Notes under the pieces: generated by a model
What the model was told of the DNA's origin: nothing
Database searches by the model: none
What the model saw: the letters and a program-made list of their open reading frames with translations, nothing else
Part shown: piece after piece, positions 14,701 through 61,000 of the stretch
How positions within the stretch are numbered: the first letter of the stretch is position 1
Layout of the letters: every line of letters begins with the position of its first letter
Position numbers and translations under genes: made by a program
Origin: Acidobacteriota bacterium
Lineage (GTDB): Bacteria > Acidobacteriota > Vicinamibacteria > Vicinamibacterales > 2-12-FULL-66-21
Assembly (NCBI GenBank): GCA_003222675.1
Contig: QHWT01000096.1
Span: 40,812-103,935 of the forward strand
DNA: 63,124 nucleotides
Direction: 5' to 3'

Positions 14701-17700
14701 TTCTACATCCTCGAGGCGCGCGCGAACGGTGACGATGGCCGTTACACGACCACGCGGACGTCGTTCTATGCGCTGGGCGCCGGGTACACCGCATGGCAGC
14801 GCTACGATCACAACCGCATCGATCTCGTCGCGGAGCGCAGCACGTATCGGCCGGGCGAAACGGCGCGCATCATGATCCAATCGCCGTGGGAGCAGGCGAC
14901 CGCGCTTGTGACGACCGAGCGCGAGGGCATCCGCACGCATCGCACCTTTCCGCTGACGTCGACCGAGCAGTCCATCGATGTGCCGGTTGCTGAAGACGAT
15001 ATTCCGAATTTCTACGTCTCCGTCCTGCTCGTGAAAGGGCGCAGCAGCGGTCAGCCATCGGCTGGAGATGACCGCGCGCAGCGGCCTGCCCGCCGCAGCT
15101 CGCGAGAAGTCAACGAGCGAAGGCGGGAGGTGGGAAATGTGAAAGGGGCCCCACCGAGCGAAGTAAGCGAAGACGATCCGAGCGATCCGGGTAAACCTTC
15201 GTTCAGGCTTGGCTACGTGCAGCTGAAGGTCGAGGACGCGTCGAAACGACTGAGCGTCGCGGTCGCCGCTAACAAAGAGGAGTACCGGCCCGCGACCACG
15301 GCAAAGATCAGCGTCGACGTCAAGGATCGCCAGGGTAAGGGCACGGCAAGCGAGGTGACGCTGTGGGCGGTTGATTACGGCGTGTTGTCGCTGACGGCCT
15401 ATCACACGCCGGACGTTCTCGGATCTGTGTATATCGACAAGGCGCTCCAGGTCCTCAACGAAGACAATCGCCAGCGCATCGTGTCGCGCCGCGTTCTCAC
15501 GCCGAAGGGGGAGACGGATGGCGGCGGAGGTGGACAGGACACTGGCGCGGGAACGATCCGGCGCGACTTCCGGGTGCTCGCTTTCTGGCTCGGGTCCACT
15601 ACGACGGATGCAGGGGGCCACGCGTCGGCGGACGTGAAGCTGCCGGAGTCGCTGACGACCTATCGAATCATGGCGGTCGCTGCCGACCGCGCGTCGCGTT
15701 TCGGCTCGGCGGATGCGGAGATCCGCATCAACAAGCCGGTCACGCTCAAGGCGGCGTTCCCGCGCTTCCTCGCGGTCGGTGACAAGGCAACCTTTGGCGC
15801 GGTCGTGACGAATCAGCTCACGCGCGGCGGCACGGCCACGGTCACGATTGCGAGTCTCGATCCTGACGTCATGCAGTTTTCAGATGGCGCGCCCCGGACG
15901 ATCGATGTTGCGGCGGGCGGATCGACGGAAGTGCGGTTCGATGCGGCCGGCCGGCGGATCGGGACAGCGCGTGTGCGGGTGACCGTGTCGCTCGAGAACG
16001 AGACCGACGCGTTCGAAGACGTCATTCCTGTCGAAGTTCTGGTCTCGCCTGAAACGGTGTCCGCGATTGGTGAGGCGACCGAGACCAAGCCGTCTATCCC
16101 CGAGCGTCTTGCGCTCCCGAACGAGGTCGTGCCGGGCTTCGGCGGTCTCCACATCGAGATGGCATCGACGGCGATGGTCGGTCTCAGCGAAGGCGCGCGA
16201 TATCTCGTCGAGTACCCGTACGGGTGCGCGGAGCAGCGCGGCTCGCGCGCGCTCGCGCTGCTCCTCGCGGCGGATCTCGGCGAGGCGTTCAAGCTTGCAG
16301 GAATCGACGCCGCCGGCTTGCGTCCGACCGTCCAGGCCGCTCTGCGCGATCTGGAACGGTACCAGTGCGCGAGCGGGGGATTCGCGTACTGGCCGGGCCA
16401 GTGTCGCAGCGTGTCACCGTACCTGACTGCGTATCTGCTGCACGTTTTCAAGGTTGCATCCGATCTGAAATACGACGTTGATGCCGGCATGCGGCAGCGC
16501 GCATACACCTACCTGCAGACCCAGCTGGCACAGGCGCCGCCGCAGAACGAGAGCTGGTGGGCGTCGTACACGGCGTGGCAGGCGTTCGCCGTGAAGGTTC
16601 TCACTGAAGGCGGACGAAATCAGGACTCGAACCTGACACGTCTCTATGGCTATCGCGAGCGGATGCCGGTGTTCGCGCTTGCGTATCTTCACGATGCGCT
16701 GCTCGCGAAAGGGGAGCGCACCGGCCCGCGCGTGACGGATCTTCAGCGCCGCATGTCGAATGCGATCCTGCCCGAGGCGGCGACGGCGCACGTCGAAGAG
16801 CTGAGCGATCCATACCTGCTCTGGTTCTGGAACTCGAACGTGCGTTCGACCGCCATCGTCCTCAACTCGCTCGTGAGAGCCAATCAGACTGACACGCCAT
16901 TTGGGCCGCTCGTGCGCTGGATGATGCAGGCGCGCGAGAAGGGACGGTGGGGCAATACGCAGGAGAATGCGATGGCGCTCGAGGCGCTCGTCAGCTACTA
17001 CCGGCGATTCGAGTCCACGGTCCCGGACTTCACCGCGACGGTGAGGCTCGGAGACACCGTTCTTGCGAACGAGCGATTCAGCGGGCGCTCGACGATCGCG
17101 AAGACGGCAGACGTTCCGATCGCGAAGCTGCTCGCCGCCGGGCAACCTGTCGAGCAGCCGCTCACCTTCAGCAGGAACGGCTCGGGATCCCTGTTCTACA
17201 GCGCGCGCTTGCGGTACGCCGAGGATCGCCTGTTCCAACAGGGGCTCGACCGGGGCATTCGGATCGAGCGCACATATGCACCGTATGTCGAGACGGGCAT
17301 GCGTCCGCCAGCCACGACGTACAAGGCGGGTGACCTGGTGCGGGTGACGCTGACGCTGCAGCTGACCAAGGAACGGCGTTTCGTGGCCCTCACGGATCCG
17401 CTTCCTGCGGGCTTCGAACCGGTGGAATCCTGGTTCGCCACATCGGCCGCGGGATTGTCGAACGCGCAGGACGAACAGCCCGAGGTCAACGAAGACTGGT
17501 TCGCGTGGTGGCAGCGCGGCGGCTTCGATCACGTCGAGCGGCACGACGATCGCGTGGAGCTGTTCGCCACGCGTCTCAGCGAAGGCCGCCATGAGTTCTC
17601 GTACATCGTCCGGGCTACGACTGCCGGCACGTTCAGGACGGCGCCGGCACACGCGGAGGAAATGTACGAGCCGGAGGTGTTCGGCCGGACGGCGACGACA

Positions 17701-20857: not shown

Positions 20858-21113
20858 GCGGGGTGCGGGATCCGGGGTGCGGGGTGCGGGATCCGGGTGC
20901 GGGGTGCGGGGTGCGGGATCCGGGTGCGGGGTGCCGGGTGCGGGGTGCGGAATGTAGCAGGTCCTCCGTTCGCCGTGACGATCTCAGCGTTCCGTGCACC
21001 GCCGTCTTACTTGCACTCGCGCCGAGCAGCGCCGCACCCCCGTCGCGGCCCCGCACCCCGCATCCCGGTACCCCCACCCCGCACTCCGCATCCCGCACCC
21101 CCGATTCCTGTAA
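20858..21113. repeat. long inverted tandem-array pair, unit GGGTGCGGGATCC-like
   Basis: The left arm (20858-20957) repeats GGGTGCG and GGGATCCG units. The right arm (about 21045-21113) repeats their complement (CCCGCACCCCGCATCCC). They are separated by about 85 nt of non-repetitive sequence. This is most of the 340 bp gap between ogt and the next gene; I see no gene in it. Confidence 0.85.
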
Positions 21114-32473: not shown

Positions 32474-32664
32474 CCCCCAATTCTATTCACGCTTTCCGCT
32501 TGCCACGTACGACTTCACGCCGAGGTCGCAGAGCGTTTCTGGTTCTACGTACGCAACTTGGAGTTCTCTGCGGCCTCCGCGCTCCGCGTGAGCCACGTCC
32601 GTGATTCGCCGCGCGCGCCGTTATCACCTAGCCGATTTCTATCAATCTCGGACATTCTTGAAGC

Positions 32665-37972: not shown

Positions 37973-38050
37973 CGGGATGCGGGATCCGGGGTGCGGGGTG
38001 CGAAAATCACGCAACTCCGCGTCCCGCACCCCGCACCCCGCACTCCGCAC
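37973..38050. repeat. inverted array pair, unit GGGTGCGGGATCC-like
   Basis: GATGCGGGATCCGGGGTGCG faces CGCACCCCGCACCCCGCACT and related units across about 20 nt. The unit is almost the same as in the array at 20858. It lies between two ADOP genes, at the point where the second one has lost its 5' end. Confidence 0.82.
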
Positions 38051-47937: not shown

Positions 47938-48616
47938 TAATTGGGGAATCGGGGAATCGGAAAATTGAGGAATTGGGGAATCGGGGAGCCGCGTTCGCGC
48001 GGCTTGTTGGAGATACTGCGTACCACGATCCTGGCTGATTCGCAGATTTCTCACGGATCCGACCACACAGTGACACTTTGCGGCGAAATTGGTCCAGGCA
48101 CATCCAATGCATCTTGGGAGAGTATGACGCCGCAAGAACTCCGCGCGAGAACCAAACGATTCGCTATTGACATCGTGAAGATCGCACGTTCGGTGCCGCG
48201 CGAGTGGTACGTGCGAGTGATTGGAGGGCAGCTGTTACGTGCAGGCACCGCGGTCGCGGCAAACTACCGAGTTTGTTGCCGCGCCAGGTCCGACCGCGAG
48301 TTCTGCGCGAAGATGGGCGTCGTTGTAGAAGAATCCGACGAGTCGCAGCTTTGGCTGGAGCTGCTCGCGGTGGCGCACTCGCGTATGAACACGAGCGAGT
48401 ACCGGCGCGTGATGAAAGAGGCAGCCGAACTAACGGCGATCTTTACTGCGTCGCACTCAACAGCGAAGGCGAATCTACAGCGACGTGCGCGAGAACGTGT
48501 GCGAAAACGATCTCAAAACGCGCAGGGTTCGAGTTCTTGATAATCGCGCTCGCCGCGACGTGAGTCAATGCCCCAATTACCCGATTACTGAATTCCCCGA
48601 TTACGCAATTCGCGAA
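47938..48616. mobile_element. inverted-array cassette around a four-helix-bundle gene
   Basis: The left arm (47938-47987) consists of GGAATCGG and GGAATTGGG units. The right arm (48570-48616) is the complementary set (CCCCAATTACCCGATTACTG, AATTCCCCGATTACGCAATT). Between them lies one small gene (48124-48540). The right arm runs up to the stop codon of the neighbouring VOC gene. No transposase, target duplication or known terminal sequence is visible, so calling it mobile is inference. Confidence 0.6.
48124..48540 (+). CDS. four-helix-bundle protein of the S23/IVP type
   Basis: The 138-residue protein starts MTPQELRARTKRFAIDIVKI and contains LLRAGTAVAANYRVCCRARS and FCAKMGVVVEESDESQLWLEL, typical of the small four-helix-bundle family (TIGR02436). 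That family is named after proteins encoded by intervening sequences in 23S rRNA genes; the Avd protein of diversity-generating retroelements has a similar fold. It probably binds nucleic acid as an oligomer. It is the only gene inside the inverted-array cassette. The tail after residue 115 is arginine-rich. Confidence 0.88.
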   Translation: MTPQELRARTKRFAIDIVKIARSVPREWYVRVIGGQLLRAGTAVAANYRVCCRARSDREFCAKMGVVVEESDESQLWLELLAVAHSRMNTSEYRRVMKEAAELTAIFTASHSTAKANLQRRARERVRKRSQNAQGSSS

Positions 48617-49217: not shown

Positions 49218-49988
49218 GTGCGTGCGTGGGAAGCCGGCAGCGCCGTGTTCTTCGTGTACCTCGCGATCACGGCACTCGTCCGTGGCGGCCGCGCGGGCGC
49301 GCGGCCGCGGGCGCTGCTTGCCGCCGTCGCCGGCCTCCTCCTGAGCGGCGCGTCGGCGCGCATGAATGAGGTTCCGATCCTGCATGCGTGGCTTCTTCCG
49401 CCCATCCTGCTGTTGACCGCGTATTGGGGCACCGGCGCGCTGTTTGTCGCGCCCATGCCCCGCGTCGAACGGGATCTGCGCGGCTTCGATGAGACGCTCC
49501 GTATCCGGTCGATCGCGGCGCGCATGCCGCGCGCCATCGCCGAGATTCTCGAGGTCGCCTACTCCGGCGTGTATCCGGCGGTGCCATTGGCACTGTGGAT
49601 CGCGCTCGACGCGGGAGAAAGCGCCGCCCACTGCTGGACGGTCGTCCTCTTCACAGACTACGTCTGCTTCGGTTGTCTGCCGTGGATCCAGAGCCGCCCA
49701 CCGCGCGCGCTCGAGGATGAGCCCTGGCGCTCGCGATGGCGAGCGGTGAACCTGCAAATCCTCGCATCAGGCAGCATCGGAGCGAATACGTTCCCCAGCG
49801 GTCACGCCGCTGAGGGCCTGGCCTGCGCACTGCTCGTGACGCGCGCGCCGTGGCCGATTGTCATCGCGATGTTCGTGAACGCCGGCGCGATTGCTGCCGG
49901 CGCCGTCTTCGGTCGGTATCATTACGCCGCGGATGCGATCTTCGGCTGGATCGTCGCGCTCATCGTGTGGGCAGTCAGTGGCCAGTAA
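49218..49988 (+). CDS. PAP2-family membrane phosphatase
   Basis: The 256-residue protein has five or six hydrophobic segments and two of the three PAP2 motifs in clear form: FPSGHAAEG (near 192) and GRYHYAADAIFG (near 236). It probably removes phosphate from a lipid-linked substrate such as undecaprenyl pyrophosphate or phosphatidate. The lysine-containing first motif is not obvious. The stop codon TAA is the first CAGTAACC unit of the following array. Confidence 0.85.
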   Translation: MRAWEAGSAVFFVYLAITALVRGGRAGARPRALLAAVAGLLLSGASARMNEVPILHAWLLPPILLLTAYWGTGALFVAPMPRVERDLRGFDETLRIRSIAARMPRAIAEILEVAYSGVYPAVPLALWIALDAGESAAHCWTVVLFTDYVCFGCLPWIQSRPPRALEDEPWRSRWRAVNLQILASGSIGANTFPSGHAAEGLACALLVTRAPWPIVIAMFVNAGAIAAGAVFGRYHYAADAIFGWIVALIVWAVSGQ

Positions 49989-50108
49989 CCAGTAACCAGT
50001 AACCAGTAACCAGTAACCGGTAGCCAGTAGCTAGTAGTAGCCCGTAGCAACTAACCGCAACCGGCCACTGGCAACCGGCCACTGGTTATCGGCAACTGAC
50101 AACTGACC
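49977..50108. repeat. tandem array, CCAGTAA units with a partly inverted second half
   Basis: Five nearly perfect CAGTAAC units and variants run to about 50030. The second half (CCACTGGCAACCGGCCACTG, GTTATCGGCAACTGACAACT) is partly their complement. It separates the convergent PAP2 and permease genes and touches both stop codons. Confidence 0.82.
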
Positions 50109-53240: not shown

Positions 53241-53350
53241 AAAAATCGGGTAATCGGGTAATCGGGTAATTGACGCGCCTTATGTGCGACACTGCGGTCG
53301 ATTACCAGATCACACAATTATCAGATTACCCAATTCCCAAATTACCCGAT
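53241..53350. repeat. inverted tandem-array pair, unit AATCGGGT
   Basis: Left arm AAAAATCGGGTAATCGGGTA and further units to about 53271; right arm CAGATTACCCAATTCCCAAA and TTACCCGAT to 53350. The core of about 45 nt includes GTGCGACACTGCGGTCG. The ATG of the peptidase gene begins in the last unit (CCCGATG). Confidence 0.85.
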
Positions 53351-57017: not shown

Positions 57018-57548
57018 ATGCAGATGAAGGGGCGCCATTCGACGATCCGCTCCTGGCGAACCGCCGACGTGACGGCGCTCGTCAAGCACGCGAACAACGC
57101 CAACATTGCGCGCCAGCTGCGCGATCGCTTTCCGCATCCCTACACCGCCGCCGACGCGCGGCGATTCATCGAAGGGATCGTCGCCGTGCGCCCGGTGACG
57201 ACGTTTGCGATTGAGGTGGATGGCGAGGCGGTCGGCGGGATCGGGTTTTCTTTCGGCAGCGACGTCGAGCGCTACTCAGCGGAGATCGGCTACTGGCTCG
57301 CCGAGCCGTTCTGGGGACGCGGGATCGCCACCGAAGCGGTCCGCATCGTCTCCGACTACGCGTTCGCGACGTGCAACGTGCTGCGTCTCTTTGCGCTGCC
57401 GTTTGCCGACAACGCGCGCTCGACGCGCGTGCTCGAAAAGGCGGGCTACACGCGCGAGGCAGTGCTGCGTTCGAGCAGCGTCAAGGCGGGTGCCCCTCGC
57501 GATCAGGCACTTTACGCGCTGATTAATCCGTCATGGCGTGGCGTGTGA
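57018..57548 (+). CDS. GNAT-family N-acetyltransferase, RimJ-like
   Basis: The 176-residue protein starts TIRSWRTADVTALVKHANN and has the acetyl-CoA-binding pattern EIGYWLAEPFWGRGIATEAV and FADNARSTRVLEKAGYTREA, typical of RimJ/RimL-like acetyltransferases. The acceptor could be a ribosomal protein or a small amine. The gene lies 6 bp after the metallopeptidase gene and probably shares its transcript. Confidence 0.93.
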   Translation: MQMKGRHSTIRSWRTADVTALVKHANNANIARQLRDRFPHPYTAADARRFIEGIVAVRPVTTFAIEVDGEAVGGIGFSFGSDVERYSAEIGYWLAEPFWGRGIATEAVRIVSDYAFATCNVLRLFALPFADNARSTRVLEKAGYTREAVLRSSSVKAGAPRDQALYALINPSWRGV

Positions 57549-57557
57549 CCGCGAGAT

Positions 57558-57860
57558 TTACTCAGAGGCCACGGAGGCCACGGAGAATTCAAACATCGAT
57601 CTTCTTGTTGAAGATCAGATAGTCGTGGAAGTGAAGTCCGCAGCTGCCATCCTTCCTGTGCACCTCCCTCAGACGATTACGTACGTCCGACTTGCGGGCA
57701 AACCCGCTGGGTTGTTGATCGACTTCAACGTGAAAAGGCTCGTCGACGGAGTGCGTCGGGTCGTAAACGATGATCCATCGCGCCGAAAAATAGCCATGAC
57801 GTCTGAGTGAAGGCCTCCGTGGCCTCTGAGTGGAGAAGGTCTCTGTGGCCTCCCTGCCAC
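57558..57860. mobile_element. inverted-array cassette around a GxxExxY remnant
   Basis: The left arm (57559-57588) has AGAGGCCACGGAGGCCACGG units. The right arm (57801-57860) has the complementary set (GGCCTCCGTGGCCTC, GTCTCTGTGGCCTCC). A C-terminal GxxExxY fragment lies between them. The arrangement equals that of the four-helix-bundle cassettes. Confidence 0.58.
57588..57810 (+). pseudogene. C-terminal remnant of a GxxExxY (PD-(D/E)XK-like) protein
   Basis: NIDLLVEDQIVVEVKS followed by QTITYVRLAGKPAGLLIDFNV and GVRRVVND is the C-terminal half of the GxxExxY family. The D...EVK triad of the nuclease-like fold is included. The N-terminal half with the eponymous GxxExxY motif is absent. The preceding codons (SEATEATE) are array sequence. 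The fragment is probably not functional. Confidence 0.75.
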
Positions 57861-57980: not shown

Positions 57981-60398
57981 ATGGAACATCTCCGACAGGA
58001 CCTGCTGTACGCCATCCGGCGCCTCATCAAGGCGCCCGGGTTCACGATCGTTGCGGTCGTAACGCTTGCGCTGGGCATCGGCGCGAACACGGCCATCTTC
58101 AGCGTCGTGAACGGCATCCTGTTGCAGCCGCTCCCGTACCCACAGCCCGATCGGCTCGTGGGCGTCTATCACACGACGGAGGGGCACCGCGCCGTGATGT
58201 CGGGGCCGAACTTCACCGACGTTGCCCGGACCGCGACATCGCTCGAGAACGCCGCAGCGATGTCGACGGGGCGGATGATCCTGACGGGCGAAGGGGAACC
58301 GATCCGGCTGCCGGTGGCAGAGGTCAGCGCGTCGCTGTTCAACGTCCTGCGCGTCAGGCCCGCGATCGGACGAACGTTCAACGCGGACGAGAACACGCCC
58401 GGCAAGAACAACATCGTCGTGCTGTCGCACAGTTTATGGCAGCAGCGCTTCGGATCGGATCCGAATGTGATTGGGCGCCGCATTCAACTCGACGGCGTCG
58501 CGAAGGAGATCGTCGGCGTCATGCCGAAGGAATTCTCGTATCCGGAGGATCGGCAGGCGTGGCTGCCAATCGACTACGACGAGAACTTCGTCACCAAGCA
58601 GCGCGGGGCCTGGTACCTGAACGTCGTCGCGCGTCTGAAGCCGGGCGTCACCCCGCAGCAGTCGGCGGCGCAAGTCGAATCGATCGGCCGCAACCTCGCG
58701 CGGCAGTATCCCGACAGCGACGGCGAGATCGGGATGACTACATTCCCGCTGCGCGAAGCGATGGTCGGAGACATCCGGCGCGCCGTCCTGGTGCTGCTCG
58801 GGGCGGTGGGGTTGGTGCTGTTGATCGCGTGTGCGAACGTCGCGAACCTCCTGCTCGCGCGCGCCGCCGCACGCGAATCCGAAATGGCGGTCCGCACCGC
58901 CCTCGGCGCGGGACGCCGCCGTCTCGTGCGTCAACTGCTCACCGAGAGCGTGATGCTGGCCCTCATCGGCGCCGGCCTCGGTCTGCTGCTCGCGGTATGG
59001 GGCGTCGAGTTCCTCACGAGCCTGAAGCCGCAGGGCATTCCTCGCCTGGAGAACGTCGGCATCGGCGGCATCGTCATCCTCTTCACGATCGCGATCGCGC
59101 TCGCCACGGGCGTGCTGTTCGGGCTCGTGCCGGCGTTTACGGCGACGCGCGGCCTGTCGGCATCGTTGAAGGAAGGCGGCCGTGGCGCCGTCACGAATCG
59201 AGGGGGTTCACGCGTGCGCGGCGCCCTCGTGGTCGCGGAGCTTGCGCTCGCCGTCATGCTGCTCGCGGGCGCGGGACTTCTCATGCGCAGTTTCATGAAG
59301 CTCGAGGCAGTCGATCCCGGTTTTCGGCCGGAGCAGGCCCTCACGTTCGAGCTCACGCTGCCGGACGCGCGCTACGGCCAAGATCCGCAGCGGATCTCAT
59401 TCTTCGATCAGCTGCTGCCGCGTCTGCGCGCGCTGCCGGGCGTGCGAGCGGCAGCCGCCGTCATGGGACTTCCACTGAGCGGCATGGACTTCATCATCTC
59501 GTTCGAAGTCGAAGGCAGGCCGCCGCTGCCGCCCGCGCAGCAGCCGGCCATGCAGGTTCGCGTCGCGACGCCCGACTACTTCAGCACGATCGGAATTCCG
59601 CTCAAGCGAGGCCGTGGATTCTCGGAAGACGATCGCGCCGGCACGACACGCGTGGTGCTCATCACCGAAAGCGCGGCGCGCGAGTTCTTCCCGAACGAGG
59701 ATCCGCTTGGCAAGAAGATCAAGCTCGGATGGCGACGCGGGCCGGGCAAGCCGCGCGCCGGTGGCGAGGTCGTCGGCATCGTCGGCGACGTGAAGGAAGC
59801 GGGGCTCGACGAGGCCAATCCGCCGCAGATCTACATGCCGCTCCGCCAGTGGCCGGTCGGCTTCATGAGCGTCGTCGTGAAGACTGCGATGCCGCCAGCG
59901 TCGCTGGGCGACGCGGTCCGCGGGGAGGTGTACGCTGTCGATTCGAATCTGCCGGTCTCGAACGTGCGGACGCTCGACGAGATCGTCGCGCGCTCGATCT
60001 CTCAGCCGCGGTTCTACATGCTGCTGCTGACGATTTTTGCCTCCGTCGCCCTCGTGCTTGCAGCCATCGGCATCTTCGGCGTGCTGTCGTATGCGGTCGC
60101 CCAGCGGACGCGCGAAATCGGGATCCGGATGGCGCTCGGTGCACAGGAGCGCACCGTGATCGGCCTCGTCGTGCGCGAAGCCATGACGCTCGTCATCCTC
60201 GGGGTCGTATGCGGCACCGTCGCCGCGCTGTTCCTGTCGCAGACGATGACCAGGATGCTCTTCAGCGTGACGCCGACCGATCCGGCGACATTCGCGAGCG
60301 TGGCGACGGGCCTGCTGGCCGTCGCGCTGTTTGCGAGCTACCTCCCGGCGCGGCGGGCCACGCGAGTGGACCCGATTATCGCGTTGCGGACGGAGTGA
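57981..60398 (+). CDS. ADOP-family (MacB-like) ABC permease
   Basis: From ATG 57981 the product is 805 residues without a soluble prefix. It begins [20 protein letters not shown] and has the first span [23 protein letters not shown], two periplasmic MacB-like domains, the central membrane block ([27 protein letters not shown]) and the C-terminal block ([26 protein letters not shown]). No PadR gene precedes it. The stop codon lies at the start of the next array. Confidence 0.92.
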
Positions 60399-61000
60399 AG
60401 GGCTTCGGGCTTCTGGGGCTTCAGGCTTCAGGCCCGGCCGTCGACCACTGCGGCGTGTCTCCTCGGCCGCAGCCTCGAGTTCTAGTGCTGTCACCAATTT
60501 GACCAGTGATGCGCACAGTGTATCGAGTCGTGGCGTCAGCGCCGTCAGCGCTGTCCTTGACAGTAAGCCAAGTCGAAATGCCAGGTCGGCGAGGTACCTC
60601 ATTTCGAAGGCAGACCCGCCCGCGATGTTGCAGAAATTTAAATACTCCTTTGTGCCTCGCCTGGCAGATCCTTCAACCAGGTTGCTGGACGCCGACACCG
60701 ATGCGCGCCGGATCTGTGCGCGCAGTCCGTACCATTCGTCGCGGGGAAAATCCTTTGTTTCGCAATAGATGTCCGTGACGAGCGAGTCGGCGATTTGGAA
60801 CGCTCTCAGCTTGCCGTGATCTCTGCTCATGCAGGCCTCCGCCCCGTAAGGGCAAGATCCTCGCCCGTGGCTTCGCCCGAAGCCGGAAGCCCTGAAGCCG
60901 GAAGCCCTGAAGCCCGAAGCCCGAAGCCCGAAGCTCGAAGCCCGAAGCTCGAAGCCCGAAGCTCGAAGCCCGAAGCCCGAAGCCCGAAGCCCGAAGCCTT
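60396..61000. mobile_element. inverted-array cassette around a second four-helix-bundle gene
   Basis: The left arm (60396-60435) has GGGCTTCTGGGGCTTCAGG units. The right arm (60866-61000) is a long run of complementary GAAGCCCGAAGC and GAAGCTC units, starting with a degenerate palindrome (GTGGCTTCGCCC). Between them, on the complement strand, lies a four-helix-bundle gene. The right arm ends directly at the promoter of the next gene. Confidence 0.6.
60399..60830 (-). CDS. four-helix-bundle protein of the S23/IVP type, without its own stop codon
   Basis: From ATG 60830, preceded by GGAGG, the protein reads SRDHGKLRAFQIADSLVTDI, LRAQIRRASVSASSNLVEGS and EYLNFCNIAGGSAFEMRYLA, a clear S23-like four-helix bundle of about 120 residues. 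After AAAEETRRS the frame enters the array (GLKPEAPEARSP) and stays open antisense to the ADOP gene until 59397, which would give 477 residues. The extension has no biological look, so the normal stop was probably lost at the array junction. Only the four-helix part is listed here. Confidence 0.8.

Follow-up and report, generated by a model that had tools for sequence, protein, structure and literature searches.

The broken GxxExxY gene copy described here, together with scattered gene-free arrays, points to a poorly known type of mobile DNA that has a nuclease of its own. The copy lies in a 63,124-nucleotide stretch of an Acidobacteriota genome (the window), whose ADOP-like permeases fit such a host. 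With modest confidence, the feature as a whole is best explained as a defunct copy, shortened by an internal deletion, of a palindromic insertion element whose intact form consists of a tandem CRCRRAG array, a GxxExxY gene and the same array inverted. Such an element is probably, if far from certainly, palindromic mobile DNA of a REPIN-like kind, in which a non-HUH nuclease is the presumed helper.

The window copy

A sequence-only reading of the window had described a small gene bracketed by inverted arrays, and the fragment is indeed enclosed by a perfect 20-nt inverted repeat of CCACGGAG-type units (57560-57579 and 57812-57831), with 232 nt between the two halves (Table 1); one more unit, less well matched, follows at 57839-57850. 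The same reading had called the feature at 57558-57860 a GxxExxY nuclease-like remnant. The fragment matches the C-terminal parts of PF13366 (E 3e-14, 53.8 bits against a cut-off of 22, profile positions 56-117) and TIGR04256 (E 1.8e-15, 57.4 bits against a cut-off of 35, profile positions 49-116), starts at the catalytic aspartate region and retains the catalytic D, ExK and Q..Y. The label of remnant is right, since the GxxExxY motif and the entire N-terminal half are missing from this copy, which, judged by its sequence, is a pseudogene of the GxxExxY family and a non-working member. The open reading frame listed at 57538-57810 is not credible as a gene, its start codon lying inside the upstream acetyltransferase gene.

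When folded as single-stranded DNA, the region reaches a z-score of -5.1 against 100 shuffles. This fold, the recurrence of the termini in gene-free palindromes and the absence of the segment from three relatives place the architecture beyond chance.

Table 1. Features of the window discussed in the text (positions are those of the window).
Feature	Position	Strand	Remarks
Whole insertion (array, gene fragment, array)	57549..57860	+	Ends accurate to a few bases only
Left array, ACTCAGAGG CCACGGAGG CCACGGAG	57560..57585	+	Unit spacing 9 nt; same as left end of gene-free copies
GxxExxY nuclease pseudogene (predicted), C-terminal half	57586..57803	+	Profile matches
Right array, GGCCTCCGTGGCCTCTGAGT	57812..57831	-	Reverse complement of left array; 100% complementary over 20 nt
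Outer right unit, TCTCTGTGGCCTCC	57839..57856	-	Weaker; inverted-pair search; outer left partner (~57549-57557) degenerate
GNAT acetyltransferase, upstream neighbour	57018..57548	+	Element starts directly after stop codon
MacB/FtsX-type permease, downstream neighbour	57982..60398	+	Open reading frame and profile match
Probable gene-free palindrome of window-copy type, CGCCGAGGTCGCAGAG / CTCTGCGGCCTCCGCG	32517..32582	.	Covariance model R1, E 0.0022
S23 gene flanked by inverted GAAGCCC-type arrays (~60400-60433, 60875-60998)	60504..60812	-	L009, score 23
S23 gene flanked by inverted AATCGGGG-type arrays (47939-47987, 48572-48611)	48148..48444	+	L013, score 18

Empty sites in relatives

The two arrays and the gene between them insert together, as a single unit, and gene-free copies insert too. 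The window segment (about 311 bp) is absent from the orthologous site between the same two neighbours in G001, which belongs to the same genus, and in G003 and G010, which belong to the same family. The empty site of G001 reads GGCGCGGCGCGTGA-GG-TGTCCGGATCC: the stop codon of the acetyltransferase is followed by 2 bases and then by TGTCCGGATCC, which in the window lies about 311 bp further on. By match coordinates, the GxxExxY cassette L001 is absent in these three genomes and also in G006, and the S23 cassette L011 is absent in the same three; the ends of L001, L003 and L011 are not fixable to the base, global alignment to the diverged relatives being too noisy, and for L003 no clean empty site was readable in the relatives by such alignment. 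Additionally, two gene-free palindromes are missing at orthologous sites in G003 and G001. In all comparisons with these diverged relatives, element ends are resolved to a few bases only, too coarsely for target-site duplications to be read.

Inverted arrays at GxxExxY loci

The GxxExxY family is present in 58 of the 149 genomes of the class, with up to 8 genes per genome. Flanks were scored by the best inverted match between the 400 bp on each side of a locus, a score of 15 or more counting as a pass and ORFs of the same regions serving as controls. The class sample comprised 67 loci out of those 58 genomes, weaker and partial matches being left out, and the collection-wide sample comprised 80 loci, 5 of them untestable, from Bacteroidota, Chloroflexota, Proteobacteria, Spirochaetes, Cyanobacteria, methanogenic Archaea and others. 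Array enrichment at GxxExxY genes relative to random genes, the lack of which was to have refuted the sequence-only reading, is strong in both samples: inverted arrays occur at 58/67 class loci against 6/261 control ORFs, and at 50/75 collection-wide loci against 8/294 controls. Of the six control ORFs of the class that pass, two resemble S23 genes on inspection, and one coincides in part with another GxxExxY match. In the window's own genome, a further GxxExxY copy with stops (L004) shows, by eye, an upstream array only and falls below the flank score.

Copies of the unit, CRCRRAG, follow one another at intervals of 8-9 nt (at most 11); upstream of the gene they read on the coding strand, downstream on the opposite one. 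This orientation is found on both sides at 29/67 class loci and 50/75 collection-wide loci, against 0/261 controls, and the wrong orientation on both sides at 2/67 and 5/75 loci, respectively. The same unit recurs across phyla, in both Bacteria and Archaea.

Spread by other mobile DNA finds little place in these data. Among 72,556 plasmid records, only 8 contain a relative of the one protein used as query, and only 3 relatives were found in viral_contigs, so that plasmid-borne and viral spread were both set aside.

Several observations concern the surroundings of individual loci. Metagenome contigs often stop no more than a few hundred bases away from a GxxExxY gene (L104, L107, L123, L131, L141, L169, L177 and L180), as expected if arrays break assemblies. 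At L080, L071, L047 and L035 (G099:C22:522365, G036:C13:71013, G059:C332 and G017:C32), a second long self-palindromic segment lies between array and gene on both sides and matches across the gene. A uridine-kinase-like gene (named by eye) lies between inverted GGTCGAG arrays at L088:18058-18682, an array pair around an ordinary gene.

Gene-free palindromes

Inverted array pairs that enclose no gene are common, with tens of places in the window's own genome carrying the termini of the window copy, and some of them are insertions (see above), which fits the proposal of the sequence-only reading that the arrays define the element. A two-unit pattern gave 47 matches in this genome against 14 for its reversed control. 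Eight plus-then-minus pairs lie within about 270 bp, and none occur in the opposite order. Seven of the eight form one family, ACTCAGAGGCCACGGAGGCCACGGAG followed by an AT-rich loop and the reverse complement, with ends as in the window copy; in several of the seven the left array is followed by AATT, as it is there. This short form, much commoner than the gene-bearing one and probably left by loss of the gene, is a hairpin of 70-90 nt, and four copies folded as single-stranded DNA reach z-scores of -5.9 to -9.5. Unit letters are near-invariant and spacer letters variable among the copies, and 0 stem pairs had changed on both sides in the 7 closely related copies compared.

A covariance model matched 69 times in the own genome, 75 in G003, 42 in G010, 25 in G002, 24 in G006, 10 in G001 and 1-5 times in six others, counts that include both strands of palindromes and correspond to about half as many places.

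In G003, the 75 matches occur in a 93% complete assembly without a PF13366 gene; the gene may have been lost, its contig may be missing, or the palindromes may be independent of it. At L255:2208-2328 and 15851-15983, solo arrays of CCCCGCA and GGTTCAC heptamers match many places in the own genome.

Inheritance of gene and arrays

The two arms of an element change together. Arms match within the same element at 56 of 67 loci, between different elements of one genome in 1 of 100 cases, and between different genomes in 23 of 532 sampled pairs. Gene and unit are also inherited together. Three unit classes, CRCRRAG, CAGATT and AACGGAGG, which were set after inspection of the arrays and leave 18 of 66 loci in no class and excluded from the test, require 3 changes on the GxxExxY protein tree against a shuffled mean of 10.6, with 0 of 200 shuffles as low. 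Protein and arm distances are additionally correlated (Mantel r 0.32), partly owing to shared neighbourhoods, and this correlation is not the main evidence.

Both neighbours are common to another genome at 27/67 gene loci, and each of the four larger shared-neighbour groups is one protein lineage; many gene copies are therefore vertically inherited rather than jumping. Across five shared-neighbour groups (25 loci), the match between an element's own arms equals or exceeds every cross-match to an orthologue at 18 loci. In 12 genomes (G010, G029, G033, G095, G097, G099, G104, G113, G129, G135, G142 and G153), one GxxExxY locus has retained the same pair of neighbours, which on inspection look comEC-like and mazG-like.

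A predicted PD-(D/E)XK nuclease

The GxxExxY protein is predicted to be a minimal PD-(D/E)XK nuclease of the Cas4/RecB/Hjc type. Alignment of 62 relatives shows invariant D68, E78, K80 and Q92, and the structure model is of high confidence (pLDDT 95.3, pTM 0.87). The closest structure is 4ic1 (Foldseek E 2.3e-3; Z 9.9 over 98 residues at 3.2 A), the Cas4 protein SSO0001, followed at Z 6-7.5 by the Hjc resolvase (1gef, Z 7.5), LHK-Exo, AddAB and others; scores of this size can reflect no more than a common fold. The likeness to Cas4, Hjc and lambda-exonuclease-like enzymes lies in the predicted fold and the D-ExK-Q core. However, a sequence search of the PDB returned no related chain at E up to 1, and the family sits in array cassettes rather than in the contexts of those enzymes. 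Cas4 proteins carry four cysteines for an iron-sulphur cluster, whereas no cysteine occurs in the invariant or nearly invariant columns of the 62 GxxExxY sequences. The relatives appear to be under strong purifying selection, dN being well below dS wherever dS could be estimated (e.g., 0.115/1.07; many dS values were saturated).

These properties bear on the alternative that GxxExxY is a vertically inherited host nuclease that lives with the palindromes and is flanked by its own substrate, cutting or resolving array hairpins in repair, regulation or restraint and having no role in their spread. The conserved neighbourhoods with one lineage per larger group, the purifying selection, a fold near that of a Holliday-junction resolvase and the persistence of palindromes in gene-less genomes (see below) would all agree with it. 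Against it stand the joint absence of gene and arrays at orthologous sites, the differences between the arrays of elements of one genome, which would be odd for a single housekeeping substrate, and the occurrence of up to 8 genes per genome. On balance, we regard this alternative as unlikely, though deserving of serious consideration.

Palindromes, gene content and S23 cassettes

A palindrome pattern gave 3694 matches in the 149 genomes, overlaps and both strands included, against about 40 (summed by hand) for its reversed control. At least 5 matches were found in 44/58 genomes with a GxxExxY gene against 12/91 without (odds ratio 20.7). Palindrome-rich genomes make up 19/21 with the gene against 3/14 without it in family f2, and 16/16 against 0/5 in family f6; the genomes are related, so that p-values for this association are too small. 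Fourteen of the 58 gene-bearing genomes have fewer than 5 matches, and some of these carry another unit. In the window's own family, 4/5 gene-less genomes still hold 22-85 palindrome matches; thus the gene is not needed for palindromes to persist and may not be needed for their spread, although these assemblies are possibly incomplete.

The presence of S23 is about as strongly associated with palindromes as that of GxxExxY (53/94 genomes with S23 are palindrome-rich against 3/55 without), and the association persists within GxxExxY strata. S23 genes themselves lie between inverted arrays at 27/29 testable loci, 8 of 37 having been left out as cut short, and the units are mostly of about 7 nt and very varied in sequence. 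All eight S23 genes of the own genome (L006-L013) have such arrays at a score of 15 or more, each with a unit of its own, again mostly of about 7 nt. The sequence-only reading was correct in placing S23 and GxxExxY genes in a common architecture, but its idea that the genes are interchangeable cargo does not hold, since two CRCNRAG units occur in the matching arm at 0/29 S23 loci and unit types are distributed along the tree of GxxExxY proteins. S23 cassettes are parallel to GxxExxY elements and not the same, each protein family having its own array class.

Additional short tandem arrays, some in inverted pairs and with no S23 or GxxExxY match between them, lie at 20858-21101, 37973-38050, 49976-50107 and 53244-53339 of the window; they are possible gene-free S23-type forms.

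The palindromes might instead be moved by another factor, be it S23, a transposase of the Y1/RAYT type or some enzyme as yet unknown, with GxxExxY a passenger caught between two of them. The S23 correlation speaks for such a factor, as it holds even among GxxExxY-negative genomes (palindrome-rich in 10/42 with S23 against 2/49 without). However, S23 arrays are of other units, and Y1_Tnp (PF01797) has no effect within GxxExxY strata (35/47 against 9/11; 8/48 against 4/43) and is absent in 13/56 palindrome-rich genomes, which leaves Y1/RAYT as the mover unsupported. A passenger, moreover, should show neither a unit type that tracks its own tree nor a fixed array orientation relative to its reading frame. 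We therefore consider a passenger role improbable.

It is very unlikely that the element acts as RNA, with the arrays forming a processed double-stranded stem comparable to that of 23S rRNA intervening sequences and spread occurring at the RNA level or by accident. S23, the protein of 23S intervening sequences, does share the architecture, and terminal inverted repeats are described for those sequences in the available text of PMC4990558. However, the window element lies between two protein genes and not in 23S rRNA, with no S23 gene found inside it by profile search; the retention of unit letters while spacers vary uncompensated (7 close copies) favours sequence recognition over pairing alone; and the partner protein has a predicted DNA-nuclease-like fold.

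Least probable of all is that the arrays are uninformative about the gene and grew by replication slippage at terminator-like palindromes: short tandem units do slip readily, and arms can come to resemble each other through slipped or templated repair, but the enrichment, the fixed orientation, the unit common to distant phyla and the clean empty sites argue against it, and a chance repeat or an ordinary terminator pair is ruled out by the control ORFs and the empty sites.

A possible mechanism

For the REPIN-like element, spread would begin with the folding of inverted arrays into a hairpin or cruciform in single-stranded DNA, a step represented here by folding energies only. The nuclease of an intact copy would then recognise its own unit in the hairpin or cruciform and cut there, as the co-inheritance of unit and protein and the predicted fold suggest. 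Host repair would subsequently copy or insert the palindrome, released or templated, at a further site between genes; since a metal-dependent nuclease forms no covalent protein-DNA joint and cannot close strands alone, the joining would fall to host repair. Gene-free palindromes may rely on this enzyme in trans, in the manner proposed for REPINs and RAYTs. Additionally, repair templated across the hairpin could keep the arms alike while the unit drifts, which would account for the observed matching of arms. We infer that the nuclease moves the palindromes.

A broader and more tentative proposal, to which we give distinctly less credence than to the REPIN-like element itself, is that these palindromes, in Bacteria and Archaea alike, form a class of mobile DNA of their own. 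A minimal PD-(D/E)XK nuclease, specific for its own unit, would spread the inverted-tandem-array palindromes, with host repair joining the strands, gene-free hairpins far outnumbering the gene and hairpin-templated repair keeping the arms alike; S23 would represent a second, parallel class with units of about 7 nt and a non-nuclease helper.

Relation to known systems

The nearest known arrangement is REPIN/RAYT, in which, according to the available text of PMC3116915 and PMC3733652, intergenic multi-copy palindromes go with a nuclease gene that has such repeats on both sides, and gene and repeat co-evolve. Common to both systems are short, intergenic multi-copy palindromes made of two inverted repeats and a short loop, a nuclease gene bordered by these repeats, and the co-evolution of the two. 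However, the linked protein is here of the predicted PD-(D/E)XK type and not an HUH Y1 enzyme, the arms are tandem arrays of a 7-nt unit, and the GxxExxY gene, which can sit inside the element, numbers up to 8 per genome, whereas RAYTs are reported to be single-copy genes. A GTAG (or CGTC) tag is also absent from the core consensus of the 7 gene-free copies. Because enzyme, arm structure and tag differ, the element works like REPIN/RAYT at most and is not a member of that system.

The gene-free insertions resemble MITEs in that they share their inverted-repeat ends with a longer, gene-bearing copy, but the gene inside is not a DDE-type transposase, the ends are tandem arrays, and the unit varies from element to element within a genome. 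S23 cassettes and 23S intervening sequences (PF05635/TIGR02436) likewise hold a small gene between inverted repeats, but the S23 protein has another fold (a four-helix bundle) and the units, of about 7 nt, are unrelated, none being CRCNRAG.

GGGAATC heptamer arrays in Xanthomonas and Nostoc, as far as the available text of PMC4692102 goes, often form convergent inverted pairs between genes, with 70 in Xcc and 75 in Xac. These are short tandem arrays too, but their sequence resembles that of S23-type arrays and not the GxxExxY unit, and no linked protein is named in the part of PMC4692102 available. A link between the Xanthomonas arrays and S23 seems worth testing. Within the accessible parts of the open-access literature, no published description of a GxxExxY-array element was found, and the papers that name GxxExxY are not about arrays; a description elsewhere is possible.

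Implications

If the REPIN-like account is true, it would provide a function for the widespread unknown family GxxExxY/PDDEXK_3, found in 58 of the 149 class genomes, in many phyla and in Archaea, and for a scattered repeat. It would also add a second nuclease type to the few enzymes thought to spread prokaryotic palindromic repeats, with a mechanism that must differ from that of HUH enzymes. Moreover, the array unit would predict the substrate of each GxxExxY protein, which makes the proposal directly testable.
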